Assembly: GCA_016928395.1 (NCBI GenBank)
Contig: JAFGKV010000200.1
Location: forward strand, 1-9,970
DNA: 9,970 bases
Reading direction: 5' to 3'
Source of the DNA: Candidatus Fermentibacterota bacterium
GTDB taxonomy: Bacteria; JAFGKV01
In this document: positions 1,842 through 9,048 of the stretch, one piece after another
How positions within the stretch are numbered: position 1 is the first letter of the stretch
Layout of the letters: every line of letters begins with the position of its first letter
Made by a program: the position numbers and the translations under genes
Notes under the pieces: generated by a model
Told to the model about the DNA's origin: nothing
What the model saw: the letters and a program-made list of their open reading frames with translations, nothing else
The model's database searches: none

Positions 1842-1955
1842 ATGGGGAGGGTAGCGATCATTGGTTCAGATGCGTTGGCGGCCCTGACCATGTTGAAGGC
1901 AGGTCCACGTGACCTAGAGGTAGTGCTTGTGCAACGCTACGGAGAGAGGGCGTGA
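1842..1955 (+). CDS. Possible 37-aa peptide coupled to the propeller lipoprotein gene
   Basis: A short ORF starting ATG 1842, preceded by GGGAGG (1826-1831) with a 10-base gap. It contains GRVAIIGSDALAALTML followed by KAGPRDLEVVLVQRYGERA. Its stop overlaps the start of the next gene as TGATG (TGA 1953-1955, ATG 1955-1957), an arrangement that favours translational coupling. No signal peptide or known domain is recognised; the alternating hydrophobic stretch looks like a beta strand plus helix. It may be a leader peptide, the stump of a lost gene or a chance ORF. The purine-rich GGAGAGAGG near its end also serves as the ribosome site of the propeller gene. Confidence 0.35.
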   Translation: MGRVAIIGSDALAALTMLKAGPRDLEVVLVQRYGERA

Positions 1956-3061
1956 TGGTGCGAAGGCGAATCGGCCGTGCTTTGATACTGCTCCTGGTTG
2001 CCCTTGGGGCGTGCTCGAAGGAGAGGGGCACCTATCGGGGCGTCGTGGTCCTCGATCGGAGCACGGCCCGGCCCATCGTGGCGACGTGGGCAACGTCGAA
2101 AGCAACGGAGAGCACGGATCCCGGGGATCCGCTCGCTGACCTGTATGAGCCGGTAGACGTCGCCATTGGCCCAGGCGACTCGATCTACGTCGCCGACATG
2201 GGGTCCGGCCGAATCATCGTCTATTCTCCTGAGGGAAGACCTGCTCGTACTATCGGACGGTTCGGCCAAGGGCCGGGAGAGTTCGAGCATCTGAGGACCG
2301 TCACGATAGATGGCGAGGGGAGGATCTGGGCGGGGGAGATGGGGCGGCTCCAGGTGCTTTCGGCAGATGGGGAGTGCCTGGCGCTCTCGACTCTCGCGCG
2401 GTTTTTCCCGTTGAGCCCTGTCTTGGCTGCCCTGCCAGATGGAAGGGTTTGGGCAGGAGGTTCATTCCTACGCCTTGTGCAAGAAGAGGACGGCTGGGCC
2501 ATAGCCTCTGCTGATAACGTTGTCGATCTGCTTGCCCATGATCCCGCCAAGACGCTGAAGGCGCAGAAGCGGCTCAGGGTGCTCGACGTCATCTCTCAGC
2601 TTGGCGTGCGATCGAGTCATGGCTATGTCCTGCTCGCTCACCTCGTGACGGCGCGGAAGCCGTATGCATGGCTTCAGGAATTCGACCAGAACGGAGTGTT
2701 GAAGTCGGTATTCGATGTGGATCCCGCGTGTACAGATTCCAATTACATCGCCACGAAGCGGATGCTGGGAGATGATGGGTACATGCCGGCTTTCCGCAGA
2801 CTCCTGATTGATCAAAGGGGCGACGCCGTGTTGGTGACAGCCGATCCTCCATTGCTGTGCAGATTCGATCCGCTACGTTGCGCATTTGCTGACGTGAGCG
2901 AGATCCACTTCAGATCATCCGACAATGGAATGCAGCGTCTGCCCACCGCATGGTCAGCCGCCGTCGATTCACAGGGAAGAATTGTCGTCACAGGAATCAC
3001 CAAGTCCCTGAAGCGAGTCGTGATGCAGCTTCCTTGGCAGGAAGGAGGTGATGTCTCTTGA
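1955..3061 (+). CDS. Lipoprotein with a 6-bladed beta-propeller (NHL-like)
   Basis: A 368-aa exported protein. Residues 3-8 are basic (RRRIGR), 9-18 are hydrophobic, and the lipobox LGAC places the lipidated cysteine at C20, so it should be anchored to a membrane facing the periplasm or outside. The mature part has propeller strands such as PVDVAIGPGDSIYVADMGSG (about 66-85), a blade turn SPEGR (91-95) and the signature GRFGQGPGEF (101-110), as in NHL-like and DUF5128-type 6-bladed propellers. Such proteins bind peptides, glycans or other proteins; no catalytic residues can be assigned. ATG 1955 is preferred over GTG 1952 because it is better spaced from GGAGAGAGG (1941-1949). It overlaps the small ORF upstream and is followed after 64 bases by the secreted-peptide gene, so the three are probably co-transcribed. 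No promoter was found in 1786-1841. Family is fairly sure; ligand unknown. Confidence 0.9.
   Translation: MVRRRIGRALILLLVALGACSKERGTYRGVVVLDRSTARPIVATWATSKATESTDPGDPLADLYEPVDVAIGPGDSIYVADMGSGRIIVYSPEGRPARTIGRFGQGPGEFEHLRTVTIDGEGRIWAGEMGRLQVLSADGECLALSTLARFFPLSPVLAALPDGRVWAGGSFLRLVQEEDGWAIASADNVVDLLAHDPAKTLKAQKRLRVLDVISQLGVRSSHGYVLLAHLVTARKPYAWLQEFDQNGVLKSVFDVDPACTDSNYIATKRMLGDDGYMPAFRRLLIDQRGDAVLVTADPPLLCRFDPLRCAFADVSEIHFRSSDNGMQRLPTAWSAAVDSQGRIVVTGITKSLKRVVMQLPWQEGGDVS
3042..3052 (+). promoter_or_regulatory. Eleven-base Shine-Dalgarno match at the end of the propeller gene
   Basis: AAGGAGGTGAT matches the complement of the conserved 3' end of bacterial 16S rRNA over 11 bases. It lies in the last codons of the propeller gene. 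ATG 3051 is only 2 bases beyond GGAGG, too close for normal initiation. The best-spaced start is TTG 3058, which would open a 23-codon frame whose stop overlaps ATG 3126 of the secreted peptide as ATGA (3126-3129). It may load ribosomes for the peptide gene, cause pausing, or be chance in a GGA/GGT codon run. Confidence 0.4.
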
Positions 3062-3125
3062 GGGTATGCTCCTCAGATCACGGAGTCCTTACAGAACGGG
3101 TATCAGGAAAATGGAGGCAAATCAG

Positions 3126-3425
3126 ATGACGATCCGCTTTCCCGCAGGTCTGATTCTCTCTCTACTGGCCGTCACATCGGCCAACTTGCTTTGGGTATCT
3201 CCCGCCCTGGCAACGATGAACCAGGGCGTGCCGTCATGTTCCGTATCCATTGGATGCCCAAGTGGATCGGGAGTTCCGTCAGTCCTCTGTACGTGCTGGA
3301 GCAACGATAGTTCTTGCTGGTGCGGATACAGCGTGAGCACAGTCCAATGCCACAGCTCAACCAGTGGGAGCTTCAAGGACTGTTCGGGAGGGGAAGTCTA
3401 CTGGTGGATCATCTACCTTCCCTAG
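3126..3425 (+). CDS. Small secreted cysteine-rich peptide
   Basis: A 99-aa product of no recognised family. Residues 1-29 form a Sec signal peptide: Arg4, a long hydrophobic core and a cleavage site at SPALA before residue 30. The predicted mature peptide of about 70 aa is rich in Ser, Gly and Cys, with eight cysteines at 38, 44, 55, 57, 64, 66, 75 and 86 (C-x5-C-x10-C-x-C-x6-C-x-C-x8-C-x10-C), including two CxC pairs, and an aromatic tail VYWWIIYLP. An even number suggests four disulfides or a metal site. I chose ATG 3126 because GGAGG (3113-3117) lies 8 bases upstream and the signal peptide is compact; ATG 3111 and 3051 are alternatives in the same frame. It follows the propeller lipoprotein by 64 bases. 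The layout recalls NVEALA peptides beside TolB-like propellers in Bacteroidales, but no NVEALA motif is present. Candidate roles are ligand or partner of a propeller, or a surface or bacteriocin-like peptide. Confidence 0.7.
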   Translation: MTIRFPAGLILSLLAVTSANLLWVSPALATMNQGVPSCSVSIGCPSGSGVPSVLCTCWSNDSSCWCGYSVSTVQCHSSTSGSFKDCSGGEVYWWIIYLP

Positions 3426-3436
3426 GAGGCATGCCT

Positions 3437-3464
3437 TGATAGAGCGAGGAGGACGGCTCTATCA
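3437..3464 (+). terminator. Hairpin after the peptide gene (terminator or attenuator)
   Basis: TGATAGAGC (3437-3445) and GCTCTATCA (3456-3464) form a perfect 9-bp stem with a 10-base loop, starting 11 bases after the peptide stop codon. No clean T-tract follows, so it is not a standard intrinsic terminator. CGAGGAG (3445-3451), mostly in the loop, can also pair with CTCCTCG (3477-3483), giving a mutually exclusive structure. It may partly end transcription, protect the upstream mRNA 3' end, or tune expression of the gene starting at 3513. Confidence 0.5.
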
Positions 3465-3512
3465 GCAGAAGTCGTTCTCCTCGTTTCCCTCAGTCAAGAG
3501 AAGAGGTGTCTC

Positions 3513-4106
3513 GTGAATACAAGGATCGTGGCTACCTTACTTTTGCTGGGCTTTCCCGCTCTCCCCCTCTATGCGGGAGAGCCCGAGGCCCGTTTCCCAG
3601 TCTCCATGGAACATGGGCCGATCCAAGCGACCGAACTGCAGGGAGCGCTACAGCTGCTCGGCGTCAATATGTATCGCTTCTCGTATTCCGTGCCGTTCGT
3701 GCATGCGATCAAGTACCGAGCATGCGCGTATGTGAGCGGCAAGGAGCAGCCGCTTGGAGACGGAGATGTCAAGGGTTTGGAGCCAGGCAAGCAGGCCATC
3801 ACGGTGATCACGCGCAAGTCAGAGGGCATGCTTGATCTGACTGTGACGTGCGGCCGGGATTCCGACGTTCCGCGGAATCTCCTCGGTGGGGAGAAGAGGG
3901 CTGTCCCGCTCTCTCTGGATGGCTATGGACCTCGAGGGTCGTCGGTCCCTCCCAATGTCACGCTGGAGGCGGGCAAGGAGGTCCCCATCTGGGTGTTCTC
4001 GGCCAGCAGCGGGCAGTGGTCGATGTTCACGGGCAGGGAGTCCATCCAGGACTACGCGAAGCGAACCGACCTGGTGGTGGTCGTGTATGTGACGTTGTTG
4101 GGATAG
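3513..4106 (+). CDS. Exported protein of unknown function
   Basis: A 197-aa protein with a clear N-terminal signal: MNTR, a hydrophobic stretch VATLLLLGFPALPLYA and likely cleavage after A21 (LYA before GEP). The mature protein of about 176 aa has no recognised domain. It contains two cysteines (C71 in KYRACAYV and C113 in LTVTCGRD), which could form a disulfide, and strand-rich segments such as AITVITRKSEGMLDLTVTCG and TDLVVVVYVTLLG at the C terminus, suggesting a small beta-sandwich in the periplasm or outside. The start is GTG 3513, with GAGAAGAGG at 3498-3506 and a 6-base gap; the signal peptide begins there. It sits between the secreted peptide and the second propeller gene in the same direction, so a shared role is likely, but what it does cannot be inferred. 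Confidence 0.82.
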   Translation: MNTRIVATLLLLGFPALPLYAGEPEARFPVSMEHGPIQATELQGALQLLGVNMYRFSYSVPFVHAIKYRACAYVSGKEQPLGDGDVKGLEPGKQAITVITRKSEGMLDLTVTCGRDSDVPRNLLGGEKRAVPLSLDGYGPRGSSVPPNVTLEAGKEVPIWVFSASSGQWSMFTGRESIQDYAKRTDLVVVVYVTLLG

Positions 4107-4222: not shown

Positions 4223-5320
4223 ATGCGATACGTGAGTGTCCTTATCTTGGCCATGACAGCCACGGTGGCAAAGGGGGTGCCATCGAACACGGAGCGTGCA
4301 GAAGGCGAAGCCCCGATCGTGGCCAACCGTGGGGAGGGGCTGTGGGGCGACACCATCACAGACCGCATCAGATTCACGGAGACCCTCTCCATCGGTTCCG
4401 AGCACGGCCAACCCCATGAAATGCTCTGGAATCCCAGGGCCCTTGCCGTTGACTCCGCTATGAACATCTACCTACTGGATGCGGTTCGTTCGGAACGCGC
4501 CAACGCCGTTGGGGCCTGCCGCGTCATGAAGTTCGACCGAGAGGGGCGATTTCTGTGGAGCAGGGGACAACGGGGTGAGGGCCCGGGCGAGTTCATCAAC
4601 CCGTCCGACGTCTTGATCAGTCCGTCAGGGGAGCTTGTGGTGGTGGAGACCCTGGGCTACAAGAAGTGCCGGCTCCAGTACTTCGACACGGAGCTAGAAT
4701 ACCGGCGATCGGCAACCATCGCTGAGCAGATGCGGAGCGTCTCGTTCCTCAGCGATGGGAGCTTGCTGGTCAGCGAATGGGTGAAAGGCCAACCCGGGAT
4801 CTCAGGTCACTACTACTCGGCGGAAGGGGAGTTTCTGCGGTCTTTTCCGGATGACTATCGCTATGGGCCTCTTCTTCCGGAGGGATGCGGCCTCGATGGC
4901 GGGGTATTCCATGCGCAGGAGGGACGGGTGTACATGGTCACGCCGGACGCGTATGAGATCCGCGAGTATCGCGAGGATGGTTCTCGAGTCCGGACGATCC
5001 GGAGGGATGTCAAGCTGGCGCCCGCGAAGTTCAAGATCACCGGTGACCGAGCCGGATACGATCCCGGCGACGGGTGCGGGCCATGCTACTCATACAAGGA
5101 CAGCTATCTCCTCAACTTCCGTTTCATCCGGCGAGGCCATGGGGGGGGCGATCTGTTCCTTGACTTGTTCGACCGGGAGGGGGTATTCTTAGGGTCGTAT
5201 CAGAATCCCGGGGTCTCTGGCCTCGTCACGATCGATAACGAGGGGAACTTCTACTGCCTGGTGAACGACCCGGATCCCCGGATGCTGCGCCACGCCATGG
5301 AGGTTGTGGGAACACCATAG
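4223..5320 (+). CDS. Exported 6-bladed beta-propeller protein (NHL-like)
   Basis: A 365-aa paralog of the lipoprotein at 1955. The N terminus MRYVSVLILAMTATVAKG looks like a short Sec signal without a lipobox, so the product is probably periplasmic or secreted. Propeller features include NPRALAVDSAMNIYLLD (about 70-86), FDREGRFLWSRG (104-115), GEGPGEF (118-124), then SPSGELVVVE and LSDGSLLVSEW blade strands. Cysteines in GDGCGPCYSY are a local oddity (CxxC) and might be a disulfide or metal site. The frame is open much further upstream, to 3848, but that part overlaps the 197-aa gene and reads as low-complexity Arg/Gly sequence, so it is not coding. ATG 4223 has GGAGG at 4215-4219, only 3 bases away, unusually close; GTG 4232 is an alternative that would lose the basic N terminus. 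A strong GC hairpin follows the stop. Confidence 0.87.
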   Translation: MRYVSVLILAMTATVAKGVPSNTERAEGEAPIVANRGEGLWGDTITDRIRFTETLSIGSEHGQPHEMLWNPRALAVDSAMNIYLLDAVRSERANAVGACRVMKFDREGRFLWSRGQRGEGPGEFINPSDVLISPSGELVVVETLGYKKCRLQYFDTELEYRRSATIAEQMRSVSFLSDGSLLVSEWVKGQPGISGHYYSAEGEFLRSFPDDYRYGPLLPEGCGLDGGVFHAQEGRVYMVTPDAYEIREYREDGSRVRTIRRDVKLAPAKFKITGDRAGYDPGDGCGPCYSYKDSYLLNFRFIRRGHGGGDLFLDLFDREGVFLGSYQNPGVSGLVTIDNEGNFYCLVNDPDPRMLRHAMEVVGTP

Positions 5321-5356: not shown

Positions 5357-5760
5357 GGGTGCAAGAGCGGGGTCAGTAGTAATGTCGGAGACTTGGAGGG
5401 GCGGAGGTGGCGCGTCGGCGTGGGGTGAGCTGGGCGTGCATCAGCCGGATCGTGGCGAAGGAGAAGATGAGCCGGACAGCCCTCGAGATTGTGGCGCAGT
5501 GGAGGGCGCACGTTGCGTTCAGCCCCAATGTCCCCATAGTGCCCTGACTGGCCACCTTCAAGCCGACTCCACGCCGCCCCCCTTGCTCTGACGCATCTCA
5601 AGCCCTCGGACCACATGTGACTCCTCGCTCCGCGCGCCCGCATGACCCCCGGGCACGCTTGACGGGCACGGAGTCCCCACCTTCCTTCGCGGAGTATCAG
5701 CAGTATGCTTCATCACCGCGGGTGAGCGATGCATTCGAGCCGTGGACGGAGAGTCAAGGA
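5357..5760. other. Gene-free spacer upstream of the second toxin-antitoxin pair
   Basis: I see no convincing gene. Open frames on both strands give Arg/Pro/Ser-rich translations without domains. The motif GGGGTCAG occurs at 5369-5376 and again at 9670-9677; similar GGGGTCAG ends are often seen, from memory, at RAYT/IS200-associated and other short mobile elements, so the spacer may be mobile-element debris. The frame of the RelB-like antitoxin stays open back to 5617 but without a plausible start or domain. Confidence 0.5.
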
Positions 5761-5761
5761 C

Positions 5762-5836
5762 GTGATCACCTCGAGGCGGTAGCCGGCTTGAGTGTGCATG
5801 CCCATTCGGCCATCGACCTCCCGATCACACGATCAC
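5762..5836. promoter_or_regulatory. GATCAC boxes upstream of the RelBE-like operon
   Basis: The palindrome GTGATCAC lies at 5762-5769 and two direct GATCAC copies at 5823-5828 and 5831-5836, the latter only 20 bases before the antitoxin start. Toxin-antitoxin operons are usually autorepressed at repeated or palindromic sites in this position. I find no good -35/-10 pair here, so the promoter is not placed. The operator role is inference. Confidence 0.35.
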
Positions 5837-5856
5837 ATCTCAGTCTTGGAGACGAT

Positions 5857-6060
5857 ATGAGAGCCGAGAAGCTGCACCCGGAGTATGTCACTGACAGTGT
5901 GGGTCGTAGGAAGGCGGTCATCCTCCCTGTCGAGGAGTTCGATGGATTGCTCGAAGACCTCGACGATCTCGCCTGCGTTGCGGAGCGACGAAATGAACCG
6001 ACCGTAGCCCATGCAAAGGTCATGGAAGACCTGAACAAAGATGGCTACCTACAGGGTTGA
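5857..6060 (+). CDS. RelB/Phd-like antitoxin
   Basis: A 67-aa antitoxin for the RelE-family toxin that follows. The N-terminal half HPEYVTDSVGRRKAVILPVE (7-26) followed by EFDGLLEDLDDL (27-38) resembles the Phd/YefM-type or related DNA-binding fold, in which a strand reading 'kaVilpveeF' precedes a helix. The C-terminal tail EPTVAHAKVMEDLNKDGYL (47-65) is the expected toxin-wrapping segment. The start is ATG 5857, with GGAG at 5848-5851 and 5 bases between; the frame is open back to 5617 but that part lacks conserved features. Its last 20 bases overlap the toxin gene, typical of tightly coupled pairs. Whether it is best called RelB, Phd/YefM or another antitoxin type is uncertain. Confidence 0.85.
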   Translation: MRAEKLHPEYVTDSVGRRKAVILPVEEFDGLLEDLDDLACVAERRNEPTVAHAKVMEDLNKDGYLQG

Positions 6061-6304
6061 ATGGAAAGCCTCCGCTGTCCGCGAACTGACGAAGCTGGAT
6101 CGTCCAGTCATCCCGAGAGTCGCAGAGGCGGTTTCTGCGCTGGCCTCGAATCCACTGCCACGGGGAGCCCGGAAGTTGCACGGTGGAGAGCGTACGTATC
6201 GAATCCGGGTGGGGGAGTACAGGGTTGTGTACGTCGTCCGTGAAAGCGAACGGGTTGTCGAAATCAACCGGGTTCGCCACCGCAGAGACGTCTACAGGCC
6301 ATAG
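6041..6304 (+). CDS. relE: RelE/ParE-family toxin
   Basis: An 87-aa toxin of the RelE/ParE superfamily. RelE members cleave mRNA in the ribosomal A site; ParE members inhibit gyrase. The helices are YRVEWKASAVRELTKLD (4-20) and VIPRVAEAVSALASNP (23-38). Then come the typical ARKLHGG (43-49), TYRIRVGEYRVVYVV (52-66) and INRVRHRRDVYR (75-86). The basic and aromatic residues used by RelE for RNA cleavage have plausible counterparts: R54, R56 and R61 in the sheet, and H80, R81 and Y85 near the end. This pattern, and the C-terminal HRRDVYR, favour an RNase of RelE type over ParE. It starts within the antitoxin gene (20-base overlap), is of full length and is intact. Confidence 0.92.
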   Translation: MATYRVEWKASAVRELTKLDRPVIPRVAEAVSALASNPLPRGARKLHGGERTYRIRVGEYRVVYVVRESERVVEINRVRHRRDVYRP

Positions 6305-6669: not shown

Positions 6670-6807
6670 GTTTTGGGGCACGCTGATGCAGGAAGTCCGC
6701 AGCGGGGCGAAGGGGATGCCGAGGTTGAGGGCTGGAGTTGCCCCGGCTTCGTGGATACCCAATCATTTGGCAAGAGGAAGGAGACCACGATCAAAGGAAA
6801 CCATCGA

Positions 6808-9048
6808 GTGTTTCCGCCTGAGCATCGGTGCCAGAGGGTGAAACTCGTGCGGGCATGTCTGCCCTTCGTCCTCGCGACCGGCGTGTCTTCCTGTGCCTCA
6901 AGGACAGAGCACGGAGACACCATCCTCGCGAAAGAGATGCGCCAATGGCTCCAATGGGCGCAGGGTTCCCACACGGATCTCTGGGACGAAGTGCCGGGGA
7001 AAGGGCTGGCGTTTCGCCTTGTCCGGACGATAGGCGGCGAGGCCGAAGACCCGAGCTTCTACTCCATCGAAGCCATCGCCGTTGCAGGCGACACTATCTT
7101 CGTCGCAGACCAACAGGTCGAGCGCCTCGTCGCACTTGACTCGTCCGGGCGTCTTCTCTGGAGAGCCGGCCGTCCGGGACAGGGCCCTGGCGAGTTCTCG
7201 GGTGTGTCGCAGATCGCCGTCAGCGACACCCTTGTGGCGGTCAGCAATCTCTACAACTACCGCGTTGACCTGTTCTCCCGTGATGGCCTATGGCTACGCT
7301 CGTTTCCCGCCCGAAGGCCCTACGACCTGACATTCCTCGACGACAGCACCTTGGTCGTGGTGAGTCACGAAGAACCGGGAGGACTGGTGACTCTCTTCGA
7401 CCTGGACGGGGATCGCAGGGCTTCGTTCGGCGAGTGGCCCCTCTTCAGCCGGAATCTCGGGGGTAACCGCGACCTCCATTGCGCACGGATCGGAACCCGG
7501 CACCTGGCGGTGTGCAGCTACTACAGCACCAGGATAGAGTTGTATGAATGCGACTCAGGACGGCTCCTGAGAGCGTTTTCCCGGCCTCTTCCCGGCAAGA
7601 TCCCGGAACCCGAGTCGAGCGAGCACACCGACGGCGGTGTCTCCTTTGCCTTGTCAACGGTACTTCTTGACATCTTCGAGGGTCCCACGGGGACCATCGA
7701 CGTGCTGCTGCGCCCATTCTGCCGGGATCGCTCCACAGACTGCCCACCGAAGGAGATAGCGCCCGTCTCCCTTGTCGATCGCTTCAGCCTTGAAGGTCGC
7801 TACAAGGGTAGCTACGTGCTCCCGGTTCGCGCTGGGCAATGTGTCTACAGCGGCGGGATGCTGTTCCTCGCCGATGAGGACTCGCCCTCCATTGCGCAAG
7901 TTCGGGTCACTCTGGACGGCGGAACGTCCTACGAGAGGTTCGATGAACCCAAGGAAGAGCCCTCAAACGAAGCCACGGTCAAACCCGAGGCGCCGACGGA
8001 AGGCACCCATTCCATTGTTCCCTGGCCCGAGAGTTGCGACGTCTCTGCGCTTGTCTCCGGCCCACGCCTGCGAGTGCACTTCTCATCGATAATCCCCGCG
8101 AGCGAGTACGGCAATCGGCGCCCTTCCCAACTCGCGTGCGACAGCCTTGGCGTTGTCCTTACGGGATTCGATGCCGGTTCCCCGCGTGGCCTTCCCGCGG
8201 CCCTTGACTGGGACGGCCGCCCGCTGTGGAGAGGGTTCGATGCCCATCTTGAGGAAGGACGACCTCCGGCGTCTGGGGCTGGAGGCATCCTGTCGGACGG
8301 TCGGATCCTGGTATCGTGCCCGGATCTTCGAGTCCGCTACCACCGAAGGGACAGTGGTGCCTATGACGGTGAAGGCATATTGGGAGGCAGTCTTCACATG
8401 AGAATGTCGGAGAGGACGCAGGAACTCGGGCAGAAGCCCCCGATGGTCCCGGCCTCAAGCTTCTGCGCTTCCAAGACCTTGCTCTCCTTTGGCTGGACGC
8501 ACGTAACGGCGCATCATTGCGGGATAGTCGCGTCGGTGTACGACCATGCTCTGCGTGAGCTTCTGAGTATTGAGCCTCGTCTGTCCCACACCGAGCGGTT
8601 CGCGTCCTGTCGGGTCGCATGCAGTGAGAACGCCGTCTTTCTCGCCTCGGTGGCCGGAGATGTCGTGGGAGTTGACACTCGCGGACAGCTTGCGGTGTGC
8701 GTGAGGGGAGGGCATTCGGCGAAGGGAGATCTCATCAAGCCTTCAAGAGAGCCCGGTCGCACCATCGTTCTGCCCATGGTCGCGGATATCCGTTTCGTGG
8801 AGCCCGACAGCCTCTGGATACTCTATGGACCTGGGGCGTTGCCGGATTCGGTCGAGATCTGCCTCGTGACATTGTCGAACATGCAGGCACATCGAACGCG
8901 CTTCCCGGGAATGGCGGCAAGTCTGGCGGTGTGCGGGAATCGAATTGCTGTCGCCCTGGTGAGCGAGGACGTGTCACCAGGGAGCCACATGTGGGCTGGC
9001 GAGGAGAACCGCATATGCATGGGCACGTGGCATGTTGCGGCCGAATGA
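6808..9048 (+). CDS. Large lipoprotein with tandem beta-propeller-like domains
   Basis: A 746-aa protein, twice the length of the two other propeller proteins here. With GTG 6808 as start, the segment VKLVRACLPFVLATGVSSC (11-29) is a lipoprotein signal with its cysteine at 29. AAAGGA (6793-6798) lies 9 bases before 6808; GTG 6838 is an alternative start giving a textbook short signal but with GAGG directly abutting it. The first domain (about 65-372) has AVAGDTIFVADQQVERLVAL, DSSGRLLWRAG and GRPGQGPGEF (121-130), clearly the same propeller family. A charged, Pro/Glu-rich linker (about 375-410) leads to a second domain (about 411-746) with ALDWDGRPLWR (465-475), echoing ALDSSGRLLWR (109-119), and strands such as GGILSDGRILVSCPDLRVRY. 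The second half therefore looks like a diverged copy without the GPGEF motif. Function is unknown, probably surface or periplasmic binding. Confidence 0.88.
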   Translation: MFPPEHRCQRVKLVRACLPFVLATGVSSCASRTEHGDTILAKEMRQWLQWAQGSHTDLWDEVPGKGLAFRLVRTIGGEAEDPSFYSIEAIAVAGDTIFVADQQVERLVALDSSGRLLWRAGRPGQGPGEFSGVSQIAVSDTLVAVSNLYNYRVDLFSRDGLWLRSFPARRPYDLTFLDDSTLVVVSHEEPGGLVTLFDLDGDRRASFGEWPLFSRNLGGNRDLHCARIGTRHLAVCSYYSTRIELYECDSGRLLRAFSRPLPGKIPEPESSEHTDGGVSFALSTVLLDIFEGPTGTIDVLLRPFCRDRSTDCPPKEIAPVSLVDRFSLEGRYKGSYVLPVRAGQCVYSGGMLFLADEDSPSIAQVRVTLDGGTSYERFDEPKEEPSNEATVKPEAPTEGTHSIVPWPESCDVSALVSGPRLRVHFSSIIPASEYGNRRPSQLACDSLGVVLTGFDAGSPRGLPAALDWDGRPLWRGFDAHLEEGRPPASGAGGILSDGRILVSCPDLRVRYHRRDSGAYDGEGILGGSLHMRMSERTQELGQKPPMVPASSFCASKTLLSFGWTHVTAHHCGIVASVYDHALRELLSIEPRLSHTERFASCRVACSENAVFLASVAGDVVGVDTRGQLAVCVRGGHSAKGDLIKPSREPGRTIVLPMVADIRFVEPDSLWILYGPGALPDSVEICLVTLSNMQAHRTRFPGMAASLAVCGNRIAVALVSEDVSPGSHMWAGEENRICMGTWHVAAE

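Follow-up and report, generated by a model that had tools for sequence, protein, structure and literature searches.

The NVEALA peptides of the Bacteroidales and their propellers form a gene pair, and we know of no function for it. In a Bacteroides locus that we analyzed (L138), a true NVEALA gene (PF14055, 2.2e-8) overlaps the gene for a DUF5128/DUF4934 propeller, and a DUF1573 protein with weak similarity to redoxins is encoded nearby. Propellers can also be joined to redox modules: SOQ1 and NHLRC2 have a thioredoxin-like module and an NHL propeller in one chain. Laterosporulins are disulfide-rich bacteriocins for which we know of no propeller partner. A speculated role of MauE in methylamine dehydrogenase is the formation of disulfide bridges, and genome mining in Streptomyces (decRiPPter) identified MauE-linked precursors with at least eight cysteines as candidate RiPPs (PMC7794033). 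We did not find any earlier description in the literature of propellers paired with such peptides or with MauE.

Here, we examine a peptide gene in a 9,970-base window, which is the whole of contig C248 from a 4.79-Mb draft genome. As in the NVEALA pairs, the peptide gene is adjacent to a gene for a 6-bladed propeller on the same strand. PF14055 does not match the window peptide (the peptide from L138 was the positive control), and the NVEALA-type motif before the mature part is absent: the window has WVSPALA and then T, with the predicted cleavage between them. Judging from these comparisons, the window peptide is not a member of the NVEALA family.

The peptide gene and its neighbors

The precursor consists of a signal part, MTIRFPAGLILSLLAVTSANLLWVSPALA, and a mature part, TMNQGVPSCSVSIGCPSGSGVPSVLCTCWSNDSSCWCGYSVSTVQCHSSTSGSFKDCSGGEVYWWIIYLP, and it is predicted to be exported by Sec. 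All eight cysteines lie downstream of the signal peptide and include two CxC pairs. The mature part also contains four tryptophans, and the aromatic tail is VYWWIIY. Thus, the signal peptide, the mature part of about 70 amino acids, the eight cysteines, the two CxC pairs, and the aromatic tail are all as originally predicted. The coordinates also bear out the predicted distance: the peptide gene begins after a 64-base gap from the stop of the propeller lipoprotein gene at 3061. Because GGAGG lies ahead of the ATG at 3126, we favor this start over a longer frame from 3048 or 3111.

Features of the peptide gene and its surroundings in the window
Feature	Position	Strand	Basis
Propeller lipoprotein 1 (lipobox LGAC), which opens the unit	1952..3061	+	Pfam matches
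Shine-Dalgarno GGAGG, 8 bases before ATG 3126	3113..3117	+	Read directly
8-Cys secreted peptide precursor, 99 aa	3126..3425 (stop included)	+	Translation
Signal peptide (cleavage predicted after ALA, residue 29)	3126..3212	+	Sec signal rules, read by eye
Mature region of 70 aa with aromatic tail; Cys spacing 5-10-1-6-1-8-10	3213..3422	+	
Strong intercistronic hairpin after peptide stop	3442..3486	+	z -3.3 for stretch 3415-3515
Family X secreted protein, 197 aa	3513..4106	+	C309 homologue 41% identical
Propeller 2, secreted (Sec signal)	4223..5320	+	DUF5128 PF17170 1.5e-3

We searched the peptide's own genome, 59 further genomes, and a wider collection of genome contigs, and found no credible relative of the window peptide by sequence; there was no close homologue even within its own genus or family. 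The phylum is represented by only three genomes in the collection searched. The best outside match (L003, E = 0.007) was rejected because it is antisense to long frames, which by eye resemble a methionine adenosyltransferase and a sugar kinase. No Pfam family matched the peptide at E ≤ 1, and a search of PDB sequences with the peptide alignment gave chance matches only. A structure model built from a 10-row alignment was too poor to be used (pLDDT 49).

Both propellers (1955-3061 and 4223-5320) are genuine, although their matches are weak. Propeller 1 has weak matches to NHL (PF01436, 2.9e-7) and DUF5128 (PF17170, 6.5e-5), and its PF17170 score was 22.7 bits when we used the called ORF but 23.3 bits in a six-frame scan (the cut-off is 22.9). 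The protein encoded after the peptide has no match in Pfam or NCBIfam, and we call it family X. Propeller 2 possibly belongs to the same gene group as propeller 1, the peptide, and family X.

The rest of the window contains two pairs of toxin-antitoxin type: a PIN_3 protein (PF13470, 1.8e-23) directly preceded by a short ORF (595-1289; toxin-antitoxin-like), and a RelB-like antitoxin (6.1e-5) with a ParE toxin (4.2e-13; 5617-6304). An ORF at 1426-1785 looks by eye like the end of a REP-associated transposase, and in Pfam it has weak HTH matches only. A frame of 791 amino acids (6673-9048) contains a third propeller along with another large domain that matched nothing; it has a probable lipobox near GVSSC, and translation probably begins inside the frame.

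Within the genome, propeller 1 has a single good paralogue, on contig C309 (36% identity, E = 1e-40). The gene after it encodes a secreted peptide of 103 amino acids with 12 cysteines in the mature part, and the gene after that encodes the homologue of family X, with 41% identity and an identical 18-residue C-terminus (DYAKRTDLVVVVYVTLLG). So, the series of propeller, cysteine-rich peptide, and family X occurs twice in the genome, with conserved flanking proteins and a strongly diverged peptide. Because the trio is duplicated with its order kept, we consider it to be a unit. On C309, a hairpin with a perfect 13-bp stem lies at the same place after the peptide stop; its sequence is unlike that of the window hairpin, and the region overall is not unusually stable (z -1.2). 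A third propeller locus (C35) has a gene for a secreted peptide with four cysteines upstream of the propeller; downstream of the propeller, it encodes a membrane-anchored protein that carries a CTSC motif. Neither of the phylum's other two genomes has family X, and propeller 1 of the trio was not found as such in them either.

Cysteine-rich secreted peptides beside propellers in other phyla

Scanning genome contigs with both window propellers gave 63 named loci (about 0.6 Mb). In these we searched mechanically for short ORFs whose N-terminus resembles a signal peptide and whose mature part has at least four cysteines. Such ORFs touch propellers in KSB1, Rhodothermaceae, Acidobacteriota, Bacteroides, and the unplaced bacteria SM23_31, Zod_Metabat.86, and PL23a_bin.125, and one is close to a propeller in Gemmatimonas. 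Within the 63 named loci, every unmasked signal-peptide ORF with at least eight mature cysteines is in a propeller cluster.

An adjacent cysteine-rich secreted ORF was found for 8/75 propellers and 1/260 other genes in the named loci (p = 3e-5), and for 31/210 propellers and 7/545 other genes (p = 2e-12) if we include propeller surroundings from further genomes, some of which were picked because their first locus had a peptide; these p-values are a guide only because a few of the 31 ORFs are doubtful (L201, L255), we fixed the criterion when the first hits were already known, and the loci are not independent of each other. The sole non-propeller gene among the 260 encodes a thioredoxin in a propeller cluster. 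About 85% of the propellers have no cysteine-rich secreted neighbor.

Where the pair occurs, the two genes are on the same strand and mostly under 100 bp apart, and they often overlap. The peptide may be upstream or downstream of the propeller. We propose a class of propeller-linked cysteine-rich secreted peptides that have a signal peptide, at least four mature cysteines, and a propeller gene within about 150 bp on the same strand. The window peptide belongs to this class.

The original prediction was of a peptide/propeller system in another lineage, analogous to that of the Bacteroidales, with the peptide as a candidate ligand or partner, and its link to the known pairs was by layout only. 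This prediction is partly supported. We found the pairing again elsewhere in the genome and in several other phyla, and peptides are enriched beside propellers, so the case for such a system now goes beyond layout. The pairing of these peptides with propellers is a recurrent, cross-phylum genomic association that joins the NVEALA pairs.

A conserved cysteine pattern among homologues was named at the outset as something that would support a system. Such conservation is found within other families. For instance, the A7 family has five 8-cysteine copies in one Acidobacteriota genome. Each copy overlaps a propeller frame at the frame's 5' end, and all eight cysteines are invariant, with 43-67% identity of the copies to the first member. 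The window peptide itself has no close homologue. Other loci have a tandem triplet of 8-cysteine peptides after one propeller (L128) or a pair of peptides beside a propeller (L142). The number and spacing of the cysteines differ greatly across families, several subfamilies look unrelated, and profile comparisons between families are weak. The nearest peptide to the window's is from L236, where the peptide gene is 16 bases upstream of a propeller, but this similarity is marginal (40 of 20,000 shuffles; we made about 40 such comparisons). Given the differing spacings and the marginal similarity to L236, common descent of the peptides is not established. The structure model of the A7 peptide (pLDDT 63, with most of the mature part at 66-80) had no significant fold match in a structure search.

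A second type of peptide, probably helical and often in tandem, is also found beside propellers (L256 2827-3302, L260 2831-3306, and L229 6804-7252). The peptides from L256 and L260 have two C-x6-C pairs (spacing 6-20-6), like CHCH hairpins. Also, a genome from the Longimicrobiales (L122/G068) has 139 propeller matches, and we saw no convincing cysteine-rich peptide beside the propellers in the stretches that we read.

At eight loci (L103, L112, L128, L221, L251, L283, L284, and L286), the unit of propeller and peptide includes a gene for MauE (PF07291). The usual order is an AraC-type HTH protein, MauE, a membrane-anchored protein of ~180-200 amino acids, and then the propeller and the cysteine-rich peptide in either order; not all parts are present at every locus. 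In L251, from KSB1, a clear redoxin (AhpC-TSA, 2.4e-17) is encoded between MauE and the propeller, and L142 has a Thioredoxin_4 protein (4e-7). MauE was not found in any of the three genomes of the window's lineage (G000, G001, and G002), and neither was VKOR.

By eye, the membrane protein of ~180 amino acids between MauE and the propeller looked like a thioredoxin. Pfam and PDB searches did not support this, and its comparison to the redoxin of L251 was weak, so we describe it as membrane-anchored instead. In two of the cassettes, MauE is fused to a rhodanese (L221 5785-6654 and L283 1555-2352). In L288 (G064:C370, 3288-5911), the MauE gene is followed by genes for a 174-aa protein and an exported-looking 189-aa protein with 16 cysteines, and then by further large genes, which resembles the mau cluster by layout only. 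We considered the 16-cysteine protein beside MauE in L270 and L288 as a light chain of methylamine dehydrogenase, and rejected this as it has no Pfam match.

Possible roles of the peptide

We give about an even chance to the idea that the disulfide-rich secreted peptide acts with the propeller of its own operon as a dedicated partner. By layout, the peptide is probably co-transcribed with the upstream propeller lipoprotein and the downstream family X. The hairpin after the peptide gene probably makes the peptide's message more stable or reduces how much the next gene is transcribed, and either way the peptide might be made in excess. After cleavage of the signal, the 70-aa peptide would fold around up to four disulfides in an oxidizing periplasm or outside the cell. 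The propeller could then serve as a scaffold anchored in the membrane, binding the folded peptide in order to hold, present, or sense it. In other lineages, MauE and, in some, redoxin-type proteins would form or proof-read the disulfides. The window's lineage, which lacks MauE and VKOR, would have to use another oxidant.

This partnership is suggested by the duplicated operon, the enrichment beside propellers, the families with invariant cysteines, the MauE cassettes, and the NVEALA pair of Bacteroides. It is weakened by the lack of a close homologue of the window peptide, by its merely marginal similarity to the L236 peptide and the weak profile comparisons, by the ~85% of propellers that are free of peptides, by the lack of MauE and VKOR in the same genome, by the way in which some of the enrichment genomes were picked, and because neither related genome yielded the propeller or family X of the trio as such.

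Another explanation is that the peptide is a secreted antibacterial (a disulfide-stabilized bacteriocin) with the propeller or family X serving to protect the producer or to aid export. The peptides do diverge quickly and multiply in tandem beside a more conserved propeller, as in the triplet of L128 and the pair of L142. Also, family X is in just one of three related genomes and has toxin-antitoxin genes nearby, as in accessory islands, and the published MauE-linked precursors with at least eight cysteines are candidate RiPPs (PMC7794033). The model of a propeller-linked 8-cysteine peptide weakly resembles laterosporulins, but this fold match (Z = 2.5) is tied with unrelated rows and is not significant. 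On the other hand, the mature peptide is not cationic, and the window has no export transporter or known immunity gene. To our knowledge, propeller lipoproteins are not a known type of immunity protein. We consider this role to be rather unlikely. An enzymatic role, in which the pair forms a two-subunit enzyme like methylamine dehydrogenase, perhaps with a tryptophan-derived cofactor and matured by MauE/MauD-type proteins, seems improbable. Several cassettes share the mau kit of a propeller, MauE, and a small cysteine-rich exported protein (with a redoxin in L251), and the four tryptophans of the mature window peptide would suit such a cofactor. But Pfam's families for the heavy and light subunits match nothing in the window or in the other loci tested, the propellers are of the NHL/DUF5128 type, the window's lineage lacks MauE, and no pair of tryptophans is conserved across the peptides.

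It is also unlikely that propellers and small cysteine-rich secreted proteins merely share accessory islands or a secretome, without functional contact. Varying orientation, the great differences in cysteine count and spacing, and the many propellers without a peptide would fit with this, but the very tight spacing on the same strand, often with overlap, the duplication of the unit with its order kept, and the enrichment relative to other genes of the same loci do not. That the peptide ORF is spurious is very improbable. The ORF has no homologue by sequence, and the GC content by codon position of this short frame is uninformative, but it has a Shine-Dalgarno site, a signal peptide, and cysteines that are confined to the mature part, and the paralogous operon has a cysteine-rich secreted ORF at the same place. 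Furthermore, the confinement of signal-peptide ORFs with at least eight cysteines to propeller clusters, together with the enrichment beside propellers, argues against a chance ORF.

Returning to the dedicated partnership, recurrence across phyla gives one common hypothesis, of a disulfide-rich peptide with its own propeller. Slightly short of an even chance, in our view, is the broader proposal that these are widespread, undescribed two-part secreted systems found across many phyla of bacteria, in which fast-evolving disulfide-rich peptides have their own propellers, often with a dedicated cassette for disulfide formation (MauE, a redoxin, an AraC-type regulator). The NVEALA peptides of gut Bacteroidales would be one branch, and the window would represent a MauE-free branch from a phylum that is seldom sampled. 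The pairing also supplies a rule by which to look for many small genes that lack annotation.

Comparison with known systems

Laterosporulins have a small disulfide-rich beta fold, to which the match of our propeller-linked peptide model is weak and not significant. The A4 propeller profile matches the solved chains of SOQ1 and NHLRC2, but each of those is a single fused protein without a gene for a cysteine-rich peptide. The decRiPPter candidates from Streptomyces with MauE or MauD (PMC7794033) share a cysteine-rich precursor (at least eight cysteines) beside MauE; the window differs in lacking MauE.

The mau cluster encodes a heavy subunit that is a propeller, a cysteine-rich light subunit, MauE, and MauD. 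The cassettes related to the window are similar in having a propeller, a disulfide-rich small exported protein, and MauE, with a redoxin in L251. However, the type of propeller differs from that of methylamine dehydrogenase, neither subunit family is matched, and the window's lineage does not have MauE.

Relative to the NVEALA peptides, the window peptide has more cysteines, has family X as a partner, and is from a lineage outside the Bacteroidales. What it shares with NVEALA peptides and their propellers (PF17170/DUF4934/PF15869) is a small exported cysteine-containing peptide whose gene touches that of a 6-bladed propeller.
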